Shown: in pieces, positions 34,705-43,413 of the stretch
Layout of the letters: every line of letters begins with the position of its first letter
Position numbering within the stretch: the first letter of the stretch is position 1
Origin: Flavobacteriales bacterium
Lineage (GTDB): Bacteria > Bacteroidota > Bacteroidia > Flavobacteriales_F > PHOS-HE28
Assembly (NCBI GenBank): GCA_026129465.1
Contig: JAHCIA010000001.1
Coordinates: 2,245,964 to 2,309,963 of the forward strand
DNA: 64,000 nt
Direction: 5' to 3'
Notes under the pieces: generated by a model
What the model saw: the letters and a program-made list of their open reading frames with translations, nothing else
Databases searched by the model: none
Told to the model about the DNA's origin: nothing
Position numbers and translations under genes: made by a program

Positions 34705-35319
34705 ATGTTCCTGGAGCACACCGGCAACCGATCGCCCCGCAAGGGTTGGATCGAGGTGATCTGCGGCAGCATGTTCTCCGGCAAGACCGAGGAGTTGATC
34801 CGCCGCCTGCGCCGCGCCGAGTTCGCCAGGCAAAGCGTGGAGATCTTCAAGCCCAGCGTGGACACGCGCTATGCCGTGACCGAAGTGGTGAGCCACGACG
34901 CCAACACCATCCGCAGCACGCCCGTACCCAACAGCAGCAACCTGCCCTTGTTGGCCGCGGGCATCGAAGTGGTGGGGATCGACGAGGCGCAGTTCTTCGA
35001 CGCGGGACTGCCTGAGGTGTGCGCCGAATTGGCCCGAAGCGGCACGCGCGTGATCGTGGCCGGGCTGGACATGGATTTCCAGGGCCGGCCCTTCGGCCCC
35101 ATGCCGGCGCTGATGTCGATCGCGGAGTATGTCACCAAGGTCCATGCGATCTGCATGCGCTGCGGCGACCTGGCCAATTTCAGCCATCGCACCACCAAGG
35201 GCGACGCGCTGATCATGCTGGGCGAGACCGACCGTTACCAGCCGCTGTGCCGCCGCTGTTTCGAGAACGCACGCGCGCAGCATGCCGGTGCCGAACAGGG
35301 CGGAGAAAGCGACCGATGA
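34705..35319 (+). CDS. tdk: Thymidine kinase
   Basis: A 204-residue type II thymidine kinase. The P-loop is [31 protein letters not shown] is the Walker B-like region, with [14 protein letters not shown] next. CMRCGD and CRRCFEN supply the four zinc cysteines. It salvages thymidine to dTMP. Its stop overlaps the start of murF-alr as ATGA. A -7-like TATTTTCG is present at 34647-34654. Confidence 0.95.
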
Positions 35320-37811
35320 TGGCGCAGCAGGGACACCCATTGCACGTGCTGGCCGGGGTGGTGGGTGCAACGCTCCACGGTGGCGACGGTGCCGCCCGCA
35401 TCACCCACCTGGCCATCGATTCGCGCAAGCCGATGCCCGTGGAAGGCACGCTGTTCATCTGCCTGCGTGGTGAGCGGCACGACGGCCACCGCTACATCCC
35501 GGAATTGATCGCGCGCGGCGTGCGCCATTTTCTGGTGCAGAACGACAGCCCTCTGCCCGCACCAGAGATCCCTTGGAGCGGTCCCTCGGCGGAATTCGTG
35601 ACCGTGGCGGATACACGCGACGCCCTGCAACGCCTCGCCGCCTGGCACCGGGCGCACTTCCAATTTCCCGTGGTGGGCATCACCGGCAGCAACGGCAAGA
35701 CGGTGGTGAAGGAATGGCTCTTCCAACTGTTGCGCGGCAGCGAGCACATCGTGCGCAGCCCGGGCAGCTGGAATTCGCAGGTGGGCGTGCCGTTGAGCGT
35801 GTGGGAGATGCACGAGGGACACACGCTGGGGCTGATCGAGGCGGGGATCAGTGAACCGGGCGAGATGGAACGCCTGCGCGCGGTGGTCAAACCTTCCATC
35901 GGGCTGTTCACCAACATCGGCCCGGCACATGGTGAGAACTTCCACAGTGACCTGGACAAGGCCCTGGAGAAGGTCAAATTGTTCCGCGACGCGGGAACGT
36001 TGGTCTACTGCGCGGACCACGGCACCGTGCATGAAGCGGTGACGAAAGCCGGCCTGGGACAACGCGCCACGCTGCGCACCTGGAGCCGCGAGCGCAACGG
36101 CTGGCTCCATGTACCGCATGAACGAAGGACCGCGAACGGCACGGCGATCCACGTGATCAACGATGAGGCCGACTTCACTTTCGAGATCCCCTTCACCGAT
36201 CCGGCCTCCGTGGAGAACGCGATGCATTGTGTGACACTGCTGTTGCATCTGGGCCATCGGCCAGCATGGATCGCGGAGCGCACACCTTTGCTCGCGCCCG
36301 TGGCCATGCGCATGGAGGTGCTCGATGGCATGCACGGCATCACGTTGATCAACGACACGTACAGCAACGACGCGGCCTCGCTCGCCATCGCCTTGGAACA
36401 CCTGGAGGCGATCGCGGCGGGCCGCCCCAAGGCGGTGGTGCTGAGCGACATCCTCGAAAGCGGCGATGCGGCCGAAGTGCTGTATGCCCGTGTGGCCGCG
36501 CTGCTGCAACGGGCCGGCGTGGAGAAACTCCTGACGGTGGGGCCTCGCATCGCGGCGGAGAAGCACCGCTTCACCTGTTCCGTGGAAGACCACCCGGACA
36601 CCGACCATCTCCTCACCTCCACCGATCCCGCCACATTGGCCGGATATGCGGTACTGGTGAAGGGCGCTCGGGCGTTCGCGCTGGAACGCGTGACCCAACG
36701 CTGGCAGCGCCAAGTGCATGGCACCGTGCTGGAGATCGATCTGGAGGCCGTGCGCCACAACCTGAACCACTACCGCGCCCTCTTGGGACCACAGGTGCGC
36801 ATCATGGCCATGGTGAAGGCCTTCGGCTATGGCGGTGGCGCGGTCGAACTCGCCCGCTTGCTGGCGCACGAGCGCGTGCACTACCTCGGCGTGGCCTATG
36901 CCGACGAAGGCATCGATCTGCGACAGCATGGCATCGGCACGCCCATCCTGGTGATGAACCCCGAGCCGGTGCCCTTCGAGGTGATGCGCCGATTCCAGCT
37001 CGAAGCGGAGGTCTACGACCTGCACGGCCTGCGAGAAGCCGATCAGCATGCTGGCAGCGACCCTGCCATGCCGCCTATCCATCTCAAGCTTGACACGGGC
37101 ATGCGGCGTTTGGGCTTCGCGCCGGAGGATCTGCCGGCCCTGCTGGAAGCCCTGCGCGATGCCCGGCACCTGCGCGTGGCGTCGATCCTCTCCCACTTTT
37201 CCGCGGCCGACGACCCGGCCCAGGACGATCACACCCGCCAGCAGCTGTCCACTTTCCTGCGCATGGCCGACGCGATCGCCGAAACGCTCGGCTACCGGCC
37301 GCTGCGGCATATCGCCCACAGCGCCGGCACCACACGCTTCCCAGCTGCGCGGCTGGACATGGTGCGCCTCGGCATCGGCCTGCACGGCATCGGTTTCGAC
37401 GTGAACGAACAAGACCTTTTGCGGCCCGTGGCCACCTTGCGCACCCCCGTGGCCCAGATCAAACACCTGCGCGCCGGCGACACGGTGGGCTATGGCCGAA
37501 GTTGGCGTGCCGAAGGAGCCCGCGTGATCGCCACCCTGCCCATCGGCTATGCGGATGGCATTTCAAGACGGCTCAGCAATGGGGTGGGACGCGTTTGGAT
37601 CCATGGGAAGGCGGCACCCATCGTGGGCCGGGTATGCATGGACATGTGCATGGTGGACGTGACCGGTATCCCCTGCGATGTGGGCGATGAGGCGATCGTG
37701 TTCGGGCCGGAGCACCCTGTGGGCGAGTTGGCCGCGGCATTGGGCACCATTCCCTATGAGGTGCTCACCTCCATTCCGCCCCGTGTGAAGCGCGTGTACC
37801 TGCGGGGCTGA
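35316..37811 (+). CDS. murF-alr: MurF-Alr fusion (UDP-MurNAc-pentapeptide synthetase / alanine racemase)
   Basis: An 831-residue bifunctional enzyme of the Bacteroidota type. Residues about 1-455 are Mur[15 protein letters not shown] is the ATP site, and [20 protein letters not shown] and [14 protein letters not shown] follow. Residues about 460-831 are alanine racemase: [18 protein letters not shown] carries the PLP lysine, [12 protein letters not shown] follows, and [13 protein letters not shown] is C-terminal. It makes and attaches D-Ala-D-Ala to the peptidoglycan precursor. The ATG at 35316 overlaps the tdk stop. Confidence 0.95.
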
Positions 37812-37912: not shown

Positions 37913-40693
37913 ATGAGATATCCAATGTTTGCGGTGGTGCTCGGCACCGCCCTTATGCTGCCGTTCCAGGCGGCCTCACAAGACCCAGGCATCATCCCCG
38001 GTGACATTCTGGTGATGATCACCCCCGACGGTGACCCGCACACCATCGCCAACGATCTGCGCCATGTGGACAACTTGTTCACCAACATGCGGGTGGACCA
38101 CCTGGCCAGCGAACCCATGCGCATCTGGCTGCTGAAGTTCGATCCCGGCACGGTGCCCCAGGAGCGCATGCTCGAAGAAGTGAAACGCCACCCGGACGTG
38201 ATGATCGCCCAGAACGACCACCCGGTGAGCTTCCGCATCGTGCCCAACGACCCGCAATACAACCAGCAGTGGCACCACCCGAACATCCAGTCGCCCCAAG
38301 CCTGGGACTACACCACCGGCGGTCTCACCGCCACGGGCGATACGATCGTGCTGTGCGTGATCGAAGGTGCCAACCTGCTGCACACGGACCTGGTGGGCAA
38401 TCGCTGGCTCAACTACGGTGAGATCCCCAACAACGGGATCGACGATGATGGCAATGGCTACGTGGACGACCACCGCGGCTGGAACCCCGGCGGCAACAAC
38501 GACAATGTATACAGCGGCGCTCACGGCACGCAGGTGGCCGGCATGCTCGGCGCCAAAGGCAACAACGGTGTGGGTGTCTCTGGCGCCAATTGGGACGTGA
38601 AGATCATGGTGGTGACCGTGGGCAACCTGTCGCAGGCGAACGTGATCGCCAGCTACACCTACCCGCTGGTGATGCGCCGCCGTTACAACAACAGCAACGG
38701 TGCGCAAGGCTCCTTCGTGGTGGCCACCAACGCCAGCTGGGGCATCGATGGCGGCAACCCCAACAACTACCCGCTCTGGTGTGCCGTGTATGACACCCTG
38801 GGCACCGCGGGCATCCTCAGCTGCGGGGCCACGGCCAACAACAACGTGAACGTGGACGTGGTGGGCGATATGCCCACGGCCTGCCCCAGCCCATTCATGG
38901 TGAGCGTGACAGCCACCAACAACCAGAACAACCGCACCTTCAGCGCTTATGGTCTCACCACCATCGATGTGGGCGCGCCGGGCAACAACGTGTACACCAC
39001 CAGCGGCAGCAACACGTATGGCAGTACGAGTGGAACCTCCTTCGCCAGTCCGCTTACCGCAGGGGTGATCGGTCTGTTGTACAGTGCGCCCTGTCCTTCA
39101 CTGATGTCGCTCGTGCATGGCGACCCACAAGCCGGAGCCATGTACATACGGCAAATGCTCTTCGATGGCGTGGACGTGGTGGGCAACCTGCCCGGCACCA
39201 TCGTCACCGGAGGAAGGATCAACGCCTTCAAGAGCATGCAGCTGATCATGAACGCCTGCTCGGCCTGCGCGCCCGCCACCAGCCCGGCAGTTACAGCGCC
39301 CACGCCCGGCACGGCCAACTTCACGTGGAACGCCCCCGGTGGCGGTCCCTTCACCGTGCGCTACCGCGTGGTGGGTGCTCCCAACTGGATCGTGGTGAAC
39401 GGTGTGGATGGCAACATCTATCAGGCCACCGGTCTGGCCCCTTGCAGCCCCTATGAGTTCCAAGTGGATGTGGATTGCGGAGGTGGTGAAAGCAGTGGCT
39501 TCACCAACAGCGTGGTGCTCCAACCGCCTGCGGAAGCCGCTCCGCAGATCGGCCAGAGCGGACCCCTCATTTTCTGCCTGGGCGGCAGTGTCACGCTCAC
39601 CTCCTCCGTGGCCCAAGGCATCCAGTGGAGCACGGGCGCGAACACGCCCTCCATCGTGGTGCAGCAGAGCGGCACATACACCGCCACGCTGAATGGTGTT
39701 TGTGGCACCTACGTTTCCGCACCCGTGACGGTGACCGTAGTGGGCGACCAGCCGCCAGAGGCACCGAGCGTCACCATACCAGGACCCGGCGTGGCCTCGC
39801 TCAATGCCAGCGGCGACAGCGTGGTGTGGTACGCCACTTCCTCAGGCGGTGCGCCCATCGGCTACGGCAGTCCGTGGAACACACCCTTCGTGAATGAACC
39901 CACCAGCTTCTGGGTGGGCAACGTGGTCACCTTCCAACCGGCGCCTGACTTTGGCGGGCGGACCAACTTCTCGCAGCCTGGCATCTACCACACCAACGCC
40001 AACAACTGGCTGACCTTCACGGCGAACGAGTCGTTCACGATCAAGAGCGTGAAGGTCTATGCCAACGGCGCGGGCAACCGGCCCATCGGCCTGGTGAACA
40101 TGCCATCGGGCACGGTGGTGCAACAGGCCACGTTCAATGTTCCCAACGGTGAAAGCCGCGTGGACCTGAACTTCAACGTACCGGGACCCGGCACTTACGG
40201 CCTGCGTGTGATGAGCGGCAATCCACAATTGTGGCGTGATGGGATCGGAAGCGGCACATCCTTCCCCTATCCGCTGGGCGGCCTGGGCGCGGTGACCGGT
40301 AGCACGGTGACCGGTGCCGATGCGGGAGCCTATTACTACTTCTTCTACGACTGGGAGGTGCAGCGTGCGGCGGTCACCTGCAACACCGGGCTGACCCAGG
40401 TGAACGTGGACTTCAGCGTAGGTCTGGAAGAAACGTTGACGACCACCGGTGTGAGCATGTTCCCCAACCCGGCGGACCGGGACATCTTCTTCGACGTCAC
40501 CGGTGCGCTGGCCAACGAAAGGCTGCAGATCATCCTGCTGGACAACACCGGCCGTGAGGTGGCACGCAAGAGCACCGACAATGGCCGGGCCACCATCACC
40601 ACGGCATTCCTCGCCAATGGCCTGTACCATTACCGAGTGTTGCACGGTACGGAGGAAGTGGCCTACGGCAAATTCGTGGTGAACCACCTGTGA
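37913..40693 (+). CDS. Secreted subtilisin-like (S8) protease, T9SS cargo, Glu at catalytic Asp
   Basis: 926 residues: signal peptide (1-22), I9-like propeptide (about 25-105), S8 catalytic domain (about 125-430), fn3-like domain, Ig-like domains including a CHU_C type, a ~150-residue module shared with the FG-GAP protein at 27055, and a C-terminal T9SS domain (MFPNPADRDIFFDV). Catalytic positions are His204 (AHGTQVAG), Asn273 and Ser376 (GTSFASPLTAG). The usual DTG Asp is replaced by Glu151 (CVIEGANLLHTDL). A UUCG hairpin terminator follows. Confidence 0.85.
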   Translation: MRYPMFAVVLGTALMLPFQAASQDPGIIPGDILVMITPDGDPHTIANDLRHVDNLFTNMRVDHLASEPMRIWLLKFDPGTVPQERMLEEVKRHPDVMIAQNDHPVSFRIVPNDPQYNQQWHHPNIQSPQAWDYTTGGLTATGDTIVLCVIEGANLLHTDLVGNRWLNYGEIPNNGIDDDGNGYVDDHRGWNPGGNNDNVYSGAHGTQVAGMLGAKGNNGVGVSGANWDVKIMVVTVGNLSQANVIASYTYPLVMRRRYNNSNGAQGSFVVATNASWGIDGGNPNNYPLWCAVYDTLGTAGILSCGATANNNVNVDVVGDMPTACPSPFMVSVTATNNQNNRTFSAYGLTTIDVGAPGNNVYTTSGSNTYGSTSGTSFASPLTAGVIGLLYSAPCPSLMSLVHGDPQAGAMYIRQMLFDGVDVVGNLPGTIVTGGRINAFKSMQLIMNACSACAPATSPAVTAPTPGTANFTWNAPGGGPFTVRYRVVGAPNWIVVNGVDGNIYQATGLAPCSPYEFQVDVDCGGGESSGFTNSVVLQPPAEAAPQIGQSGPLIFCLGGSVTLTSSVAQGIQWSTGANTPSIVVQQSGTYTATLNGVCGTYVSAPVTVTVVGDQPPEAPSVTIPGPGVASLNASGDSVVWYATSSGGAPIGYGSPWNTPFVNEPTSFWVGNVVTFQPAPDFGGRTNFSQPGIYHTNANNWLTFTANESFTIKSVKVYANGAGNRPIGLVNMPSGTVVQQATFNVPNGESRVDLNFNVPGPGTYGLRVMSGNPQLWRDGIGSGTSFPYPLGGLGAVTGSTVTGADAGAYYYFFYDWEVQRAAVTCNTGLTQVNVDFSVGLEETLTTTGVSMFPNPADRDIFFDVTGALANERLQIILLDNTGREVARKSTDNGRATITTAFLANGLYHYRVLHGTEEVAYGKFVVNHL

Positions 40694-40715
40694 CCCACCG
40701 TCACGCCCGAAACGC

Positions 40716-40746
40716 GAACAGGGGGCTTCGGCCCCCTGTTCCTTTT
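40716..40746 (+). terminator. Intrinsic terminator after the first S8 protease
   Basis: A perfect 11-bp stem (40716-40726 with 40731-40741, GAACAGGGGGC arm) is closed by a TTCG tetraloop and followed by CTTTT. It separates the two protease genes into different transcripts. Confidence 0.85.
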
Positions 40747-40768
40747 GCCGCCTGCCACATGGCGGGAA

Positions 40769-40776
40769 TAACTTTG
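40769..40776 (+). promoter_or_regulatory. -7 box (TAACTTTG) of the second S8 protease gene
   Basis: A perfect TAnnTTTG match abutting an ATG at 40777. Since transcription should start a few bases later, the next in-frame ATG at 40792 is the likely start. Confidence 0.5.
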
Positions 40777-40791
40777 ATGTTCCCCGCCCGC

Positions 40792-43413
40792 ATGTTCCGC
40801 ACCAGCCCATTTCTCGTCCTGGCTTTCCTGATGAACGCCTTGCCCGCCTCCGCCCAGGAAGCGGCCCATATACCCGGACAGTTGCTGGTGATGATGGCCC
40901 AGGGCCGCACGCCGGAGCATGTGGTGCGCGATCTGGCCACTGTTGAGGGCGCCCCGACAGGGCTGCATGTGGTGGAGGCATTGAGCGCACCGATGCGTTG
41001 TTGGCTGCTTCGGTTCGATCACGCTTCGGTCCCACAGCCGGTGATGTTGCGCGCCATACTGTCGCATCCCGATGTGCTGCTGGCGCAGAACGACCACCTG
41101 ATCGAGGACCGCAGCGTACCGGACGATCCGCAGTACCCGGACCAATGGCACCATGAGAAGGTCGCCAGCGAAGGCGCCTGGGCTTTCAGCACGGGCGGCC
41201 TCACCGCCACGGGCGACACCATCGTGGTGTGCATCATCGAACGCGTGGACCTGCCCCATCCGGACCTTGCCGGCAACGCCTGGATGAACCATGCGGAGAT
41301 CCCCGGCAATGGGATCGACGATGATGGGAACGGCTATGTGGACGACCACCGCGGCTGGAACCCCGGCGCGAACAACGACGACGTGTATGGTGGATCGCAC
41401 GGTACGCAGGTGGCCGGCATGGCGGGTGCGAAAGGCGACAACGGGATCGGGGTAACGGGGGCCAACTGGAATGTGAAGCTGATGGTGGTGAACCACGGCG
41501 GCGTGAGCGAGTCGCAGGTGGTGGCGGCCTACACCTATCCGCTGGTGATGCGGCGCAGGTACAACGCGTCGGGTGGCACGGAGGGCGGGTTCGTGGTGGC
41601 CACCAACGCCAGCTGGGGCATCAACGGCGGGCAGCCGTCCAACTCACCCATCTGGTGCGCCATGTACGACACGCTCGGCACCGCGGGCATCCTCAACTGC
41701 GGCGCCACGGCCAACAGCAATGTGGACGTGGACGTGGTGGGCGATCTGCCCACGGCCTGCCCCAGCGACTACATGGTGGGCGTGACGGCCACCAACAGCA
41801 ACGACATGCGCACCAACAGTGCATACGGCCTGAACAGCATCGATGTGGCGGCACCGGGCAACAGCGTGCTCACCACCAGCATCGGCGGCGGCTATGGCCT
41901 GGCCAATGGCACCTCCTTCGCCAGCCCGCTCACCGCAGGGGTCATCGGCTTGTTGTACGGTGCGCCCTGCCCTGCGCTCATGGAACTGGTGCATGCCGAC
42001 CCACAAGCCGGCGCGCTCTACATCCGGCAGATGTTGTTCGACGGCGTGGATCCGGTGGGCAACCTGCCGGGCACGATCGCCACCGGGGGCCGCATCAACG
42101 CGGCCAACAGCATGCAGCTGATCATGGCCGCCTGCGGCAGTTGCGTACCGCCCTTCAATCTGCAGGCGTACAACACGGCCATCGGCACCGCCATCCTCGC
42201 CTGGAACGCCATTCCCGCCGATACCTACACCTTGCGCTACCGGCCAGTGGGTTCAGGAACATGGACCGAGGTGGAAGCGATCACCAGCACCAGCCAAACG
42301 GTCACCGACCTGCTGGCCTGCACGGTCCACGAATTCCAAGTGGCCTCCATCTGCGGCGGTGAGGAAAGCGCGCCGAGCAGCACCTACGTATGGACCTCCG
42401 AGGGCTGCTGCCACCACCCCGGCGCGCCACAACTGCTGGCCCACGATGAGGGCAGTCTGGAGGTGGCCTGGGGCGATGTTCTCGCGGCCACCGCATTCGA
42501 TCTGCGCTGGCGTGCAAGTGGAACGGAGGATTGGAATGAAGTGTCCGGGATCATGAGCGGCTCCCACACACTCTATGGCCTCGCTGCCTGCACAGGCCAT
42601 GAGCTTCAGGCGCGCAGCATATGCGGCGGCGAAGTGTCCCCCTGGTCGCCCACGGCCCTGTTCTTCACCACCGACTGTGGCGCTTGCGTGGACCTGATTT
42701 ATTGCCCTTCAGCATCGGCCAACTCCTTCACCGAGTGGATCGACCGCGTTCGCATCGGCACCATCGACCACACCTCGGGCAATGATGGCGGCTATGGCGA
42801 TCATACCGGCCTCTCCACCGAGCTCCCCATCGGGGCGCCCATTCCCTTCATACTAACGCCTGGCTATGCCTTCTTCCCCTTCGCACAATGGTTCCGCATC
42901 TGGATGGACCTGGACCGTGACGGATCGTTCACCGGTGCTGACGAATTGGTCTTCGATGCGAGCGGAACCGTCAACACGGACCTCGCTGCCGACCTCACCG
43001 TTCCCATCGGCACTGAACCCGGACCGGTACGCATCCGCATCGCCATGAAGTACCAGAGCGCGGTGCCCACGGGCTGCACCAACGGTTACGACTTCGGGGA
43101 GACCGAGGACTATTGCGCGAACCTATCCCCCTTCGACGCCATCGGCGAACAAGGTGGCGTGACGGGTGGCGGCGCATGGGTGTTTGTGGACCAGGCCGGG
43201 CAACTGGCGCACTTCCATTCCCGCCATGCCCATCCCGGAGCCGTGGCGGAAGTGCTCGTCATGGACCATGGCGGGCGCTTGTTGCTGCGTGGGATGATGC
43301 GCGATGGCCGGGCCGTGATCCCCGTGCATGACCTTGCCGCCGGTGCCTATGTGTTCCGCATCCGGTCCGCACCAGGGCAATTGGCGCACGGACGTTTCGT
43401 CCTCACCCGCTGA
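40792..43413 (+). CDS. Second subtilisin-like (S8) protease with fn3, GEVED and T9SS domains
   Basis: 873 residues: signal peptide (1-20), propeptide, S8 domain, two fn3-like domains (about 460-630), a GEVED-type domain (NGYDFGETEDYCAN) and a T9SS sorting domain at the end. The catalytic domain is closely similar to that of the upstream protease, so this is a tandem paralogue with a different C-terminus. His203 and Ser375 are present. The catalytic Asp position is again Glu (Glu150, CIIERVDLPHPDL). The start was chosen from the -7 box at 40769-40776. Confidence 0.82.
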   Translation: MFRTSPFLVLAFLMNALPASAQEAAHIPGQLLVMMAQGRTPEHVVRDLATVEGAPTGLHVVEALSAPMRCWLLRFDHASVPQPVMLRAILSHPDVLLAQNDHLIEDRSVPDDPQYPDQWHHEKVASEGAWAFSTGGLTATGDTIVVCIIERVDLPHPDLAGNAWMNHAEIPGNGIDDDGNGYVDDHRGWNPGANNDDVYGGSHGTQVAGMAGAKGDNGIGVTGANWNVKLMVVNHGGVSESQVVAAYTYPLVMRRRYNASGGTEGGFVVATNASWGINGGQPSNSPIWCAMYDTLGTAGILNCGATANSNVDVDVVGDLPTACPSDYMVGVTATNSNDMRTNSAYGLNSIDVAAPGNSVLTTSIGGGYGLANGTSFASPLTAGVIGLLYGAPCPALMELVHADPQAGALYIRQMLFDGVDPVGNLPGTIATGGRINAANSMQLIMAACGSCVPPFNLQAYNTAIGTAILAWNAIPADTYTLRYRPVGSGTWTEVEAITSTSQTVTDLLACTVHEFQVASICGGEESAPSSTYVWTSEGCCHHPGAPQLLAHDEGSLEVAWGDVLAATAFDLRWRASGTEDWNEVSGIMSGSHTLYGLAACTGHELQARSICGGEVSPWSPTALFFTTDCGACVDLIYCPSASANSFTEWIDRVRIGTIDHTSGNDGGYGDHTGLSTELPIGAPIPFILTPGYAFFPFAQWFRIWMDLDRDGSFTGADELVFDASGTVNTDLAADLTVPIGTEPGPVRIRIAMKYQSAVPTGCTNGYDFGETEDYCANLSPFDAIGEQGGVTGGGAWVFVDQAGQLAHFHSRHAHPGAVAEVLVMDHGGRLLLRGMMRDGRAVIPVHDLAAGAYVFRIRSAPGQLAHGRFVLTR

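Follow-up and report, generated by a model that had tools for sequence, protein, structure and literature searches.

Can a protease of the subtilisin family (S8) work with a glutamate in place of the triad aspartate? Textbooks treat the Asp of the subtilisin triad as invariant, and the question is raised by two neighbouring genes of the window (the whole 64,000-nucleotide stretch of Flavobacteriales DNA that was analysed), both of which have a Glu codon in its place (Table 1). A preliminary description of this DNA had left two readings side by side: a working variant triad, or a weakly active or binding protein. The invariance of the remaining active-site residues (63/63 Glu-type domains) and the low dN/dS described below clearly favour the first of these over the second. 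It is likely, in our view, that both genes encode secreted S8-fold proteases with a working Glu-His-Ser triad.

Both proteins match the Peptidase_S8 profile (PF00082) well above its cut-off of 21.8 bits, gene 1 with 79.4 bits and gene 2 with 77.0 bits. Gene 1 runs from an N-terminal signal/pro-region through the S8 catalytic domain and fn3-like and Ig-like (CHU_C) segments to a T9SS type A sorting tail, with matches to PF18962 (31.7 bits) and to the T9SS type A C-terminal sorting domain TIGR04183 (39.3 bits, cut-off 23). Its pro-region, which had no match in Pfam, would act as a propeptide. The order in gene 2 is S8 catalytic domain, fn3 (28.8 bits), GEVED (PF20009, 57.0 bits) and a tail-like C-terminus; the C-terminus had no match in the profile library, and by eye its last 80 residues look alike to those of gene 1. 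Judging from sequence, the T9SS most likely exports at least the gene 1 product. Directly upstream of the pair, a long open frame (35019-37811) resembles a MurF-alanine racemase fusion.

Table 1. Positions in the window of the two protease genes, their domains and their active-site residues.
Feature	Coordinates	Strand	Basis
Gene 1 (P0001), 926 aa	37913..40693	+	Translation
Pro-region, gene 1	37979..38230	+	Predicted separate folded alpha/beta unit (AlphaFold2 secondary structure, residues 9-79)
S8 catalytic domain, gene 1	38231..39259	+	PF00082; model matches 3vv3
Glu151 in triad Asp place, gene 1	38363..38365	+	GAA codon; alignments; model residue 129
His204, triad base (AHGTQVAG), gene 1	38522..38524	+	Invariant in 63/63 Glu types, 122/122 Asp types
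Asn309, oxyanion-hole Asn (GATANNN), gene 1	38837..38839	+	Aligned with AAAGND of 3vv3; invariant in 63/63 Glu types, 122/122 Asp types
Ser376, nucleophile (GTSFASP), gene 1	39038..39040	+	Invariant in 63/63 Glu types, 122/122 Asp types
Gene 2 (P0002), 878 aa	40777..43413	+	Translation; alternative start 40792
Glu in triad Asp place, gene 2	41239..41241	+	GAA codon; alignment of both proteins
Triad His, gene 2	41398..41400	+	Sequence and alignment
Oxyanion Asn (GATANSN), gene 2	41713..41715	+	Sequence and alignment
Nucleophile Ser (GTSFASP), gene 2	41914..41916	+	Sequence and alignment

The register of the Glu is secure on its N-terminal side: in alignments to solved S8 enzymes and to relatives, (G/S)D(T/S)IVVC(I/V)(I/V)E (TIVVCIIE) lies without gaps against TIVVAVID. 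Depending on the start codon, the gene 2 residue is Glu150 (from ATG 40792) or Glu155 (from 40777). Together with the GAA codons, the gap-free alignment confirms the original observation that Glu replaces the triad Asp in both tandem proteases. Of the 45 genomes searched in the window's genus, 42 had a match to the gene, and in the copies whose motif was read (41 of the 42 matching genomes) the acid place is always Glu, never Ala, Gln or Asn. Neither these copies nor genes 1 and 2 have the Asp of the classical D-H-S definition; the other S8 paralogues read in the window genome do. With Glu fixed across the genus, sequencing error and random decay are ruled out as its source, and the earlier argument that conservation speaks against decay now extends to 41 genomes.

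Most genomes of the genus have one copy of the protease. The tandem pair (37913-43413 in the window) also occurs in two other genus genomes (G010:C53:85687-89560 and G043:C9:49652-53534), and gene-1-like copies with VIEGAN or a similar motif are also found in G024, G036 and G007. Far apart in the window genome lie two frames of 892 and 903 aa (L002 and L003; G000:C1:1909290 and 3352319) with identical S8 catalytic domains, by all appearances a recent duplication.

A sample widened to the class, the phylum and public genome contigs gave 190 distinct catalytic domains. The acid place is Glu in 63 of these (the Glu types) and Asp in 122 (the Asp types); in the rest it is Gly (2), Ser (1) or cut off (2). 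Nearly all Glu types belong to a single clade, made up of Flavobacteriales and further Bacteroidota, and no row from outside the Bacteroidota has Glu, in a sample chosen by similarity to the query rather than as a census of S8. In two related S8 proteins of Bacteroidota (L124:4001-5050 and L111:4001-5032) the acid place is taken by Gly or Ser and the next residue is Glu (MIGEG, LISEG), whilst His, Asn and Ser are retained; this Glu is possibly a shifted acid. Used as search queries, L111 and L132 (the latter a Glu type) brought up, among the motifs listed, no additional members with Glu or a shifted acid. An S8 relative from Phycisphaerae (L150:4001-4912), perhaps a degenerate copy, has Gly for the acid, and its His motif reads HET rather than HGT.

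The rest of the active site is intact: His in HGT, Ser in GTSxA(S/T)P and the oxyanion Asn are each present in 63/63 Glu types, and neither nucleophile nor base has been lost. The earlier statement that the His, Asn and Ser motifs are intact held for His and Ser, but its choice of NASWG for the Asn did not, as the oxyanion Asn is Asn309. NASWG belongs to the substrate-binding strand, where it is the counterpart of the subtilisin Asn123-Ser125 segment (PMC11593635), and its Asn is variable, being Ser in 7/63 Glu types. Among 26 non-redundant Glu types (mean identity 54%), 50 of 342 columns are invariant, Glu, His, Asn and Ser included; W276 of the substrate-binding strand is found in 100% of Glu types, and dN/dS is about 0.05-0.33 in those pairs where it was computable.

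These data bear directly on whether the proteins are pseudoproteases, inactive and retained for binding. One triad residue is altered, and subtilase surveys often treat such a change as inactivating (PMC5371821). Against this, the base, the nucleophile and the oxyanion Asn are invariant in all Glu types, and the acid place of the genus copies has not gone over to a non-acidic residue. The pseudo-subtilases that are known have lost residues of this sort. We consider the pseudoprotease reading quite improbable, and favour a working triad because of this invariance and the low dN/dS.

Glu and Asp types also differ in the turn that follows the acid. Six residues separate the acid from the H(PDL) motif in 121/122 Asp types, whilst in the 63 Glu types the spacing is five in 51, seven in 8 and six in 4; both window proteins are one residue shorter after the Glu than the standard Asp type. 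Likewise, Gly stands two places after the acid in 116/122 Asp types vs 13/63 Glu types. The contrast in loop length comes mostly from one clade, with 4-5 independent pairs on the tree, too few for a sign test to reach significance. For this reason coupling between the Glu substitution and loop length is suggestive rather than proven.

An AlphaFold2 model of gene 1 residues 23-458 (mean pLDDT 94) places Glu151 (model residue 129) directly after strand 122-128, whilst His204 (182) starts helix 181-191 and Ser376 (354) starts helix 353-368. As modelled, the triad placement is the usual subtilisin layout. The nearest solved fold is that of deseasin MCP-01 (3vv3; Z 47.6, rmsd 1.5 over 311 residues); thermitase (Z 39.1) and BPN' (Z about 35) also match, and the predicted fold is that of the subtilisins.

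A different acidic residue could in principle have taken over the role of the acid, leaving Glu151 a bystander. Besides Glu151, the strictly conserved acidic residues of the Glu types show much the same degree of conservation in Asp types, with the exception of D197, seven residues before the His, which is Asp in 100% of Glu types vs 37% of Asp types. D197 is one candidate for such a takeover. Many relatives of the Asp type have it too, however, so it is not tied to Glu, and it is Glu151 that sits exactly in the Asp place and is fixed in the genus; among the residues specific to Glu types, no other new acidic residue able to serve as the acid stands out. We find such a takeover hardly credible. 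Glu and Asp types also differ near the site at F377 (after the Ser), M211 (in the His helix), C148 (before the acid), H122 and S127.

With residue roles transferred from subtilisin, a working triad would operate as follows. Glu151 would hold and polarise His204, taking the usual role of Asp; His204 would activate Ser376; and Asn309 would form the oxyanion hole together with backbone amides. The turn after the acid may have been resized, usually by the loss of one residue and of the Gly, to fit the longer acidic side chain. In the literature on Glu-His-Ser or on D32E in subtilisin, we found no activity measurement for any Glu-type member.

PCSK9 is an S8 protein that cleaves only itself, and offers a precedent for a weaker enzyme. 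On such a reading the Glu triad would be a weak or single-turnover protease that cuts only its own pro-region, after which the product, with its fn3/GEVED domains, would play a binding or structural part at the surface. One would expect Glu to fit the site less well than Asp, and binding-type domains do come after the catalytic domain; the conservation could reflect autoprocessing alone. Yet W276, the catalytic residues and their surroundings are conserved at a mean identity of 54%, beyond the obvious needs of self-cleavage, and we regard restriction to self-cleavage as unlikely.

A tree was built without the acid columns. In the free quick version of it, 22 of the 26 non-redundant Glu rows fall in one clade, which also encloses two Asp rows of family f9; the Glu rows outside it are L101, L118 and L132/L220. 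Constraining the main Glu clade to a single group is not rejected (p-AU 0.788) and improves on the score of the free quick tree. If all Glu rows are given one origin, the fit is 67.8 log-likelihood units worse, though this is not formally rejected (p-AU 0.074). Repeated origin of Glu in these proteases is possible. We offer as a tentative and rather doubtful extension that S8 proteases of Bacteroidota acquired the Asp-to-Glu change repeatedly and that, in the main clade, it is coupled to a resized loop that re-seats the longer side chain; the result would be a stable alternative triad, distinct in its pH or substrate profile.

Glu types may be discarded as inactive by annotation pipelines or surveys. 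A lineage with fixed Glu, beside Asp relatives at 57-61% identity, amounts to a natural experiment: it bears on the task of the triad acid and on how a backbone accommodates a side chain longer by one methylene group. The relatives in question are Asp-type Bacteroidota S8 proteases (L070-L075, with VDDG or IVDDG), whose catalytic domains have that identity to gene 1 and which form the nearest Asp-bearing group in the tree; they differ in the Asp and in a standard-length loop with the Gly.

The closest solved sequence to gene 1, as well as the closest fold, is that of deseasin MCP-01 (MEROPS S08.130, PDB 3vv3; E 1.9e-32), an active collagenolytic S8 enzyme. It has the NGIDDDGNGY-type loop and the His, Asn and Ser motifs in common with the window proteases, but a classical Asp (VIDTGVDYSHPDL) in place of the Glu. 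Deseasin MCP-01 comes from a gammaproteobacterium and is not known to be T9SS cargo.

The preliminary description had drawn a parallel with the sedolisins (S53), which are of the same fold superfamily and have an active-site Glu. That comparison is misleading, because the Glu of S53 is the base that replaces His, with the acid on the base helix and Asp as the oxyanion residue (PMC11593635). Here His204 and Asn309 are retained and it is the acid that has become Glu; on residue roles, a sedolisin-like mechanism is rejected and the window proteases do not belong to S53. Glu does stand for the triad Asp in working Ser hydrolases, namely acetylcholinesterase, Geotrichum lipase and the PepR prolyl peptidases (PMC2827410), but these have the alpha/beta-hydrolase fold and are unrelated to S8.

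Closer precedents lie within the subtilases themselves. The abstract of a survey from 2007 reportedly names a Glu-His-Ser subset or family of prokaryotic subtilases. That survey (Siezen, Renckens and Boekhorst 2007, Proteins 67:681-694) is the source that PMC2827410 gives for Asp-to-Glu changes in prokaryotic subtilases. A Glu-His-Ser subtilase has Glu for Asp with His and Ser retained, and the window proteases share all three features. We therefore count the window proteases among the Glu-His-Ser subtilases, a kind already reported in 2007, in which they represent a new member group that is both large and well conserved; the fixation of Glu in this lineage, the change in the loop and the possible repeated origin may be new.
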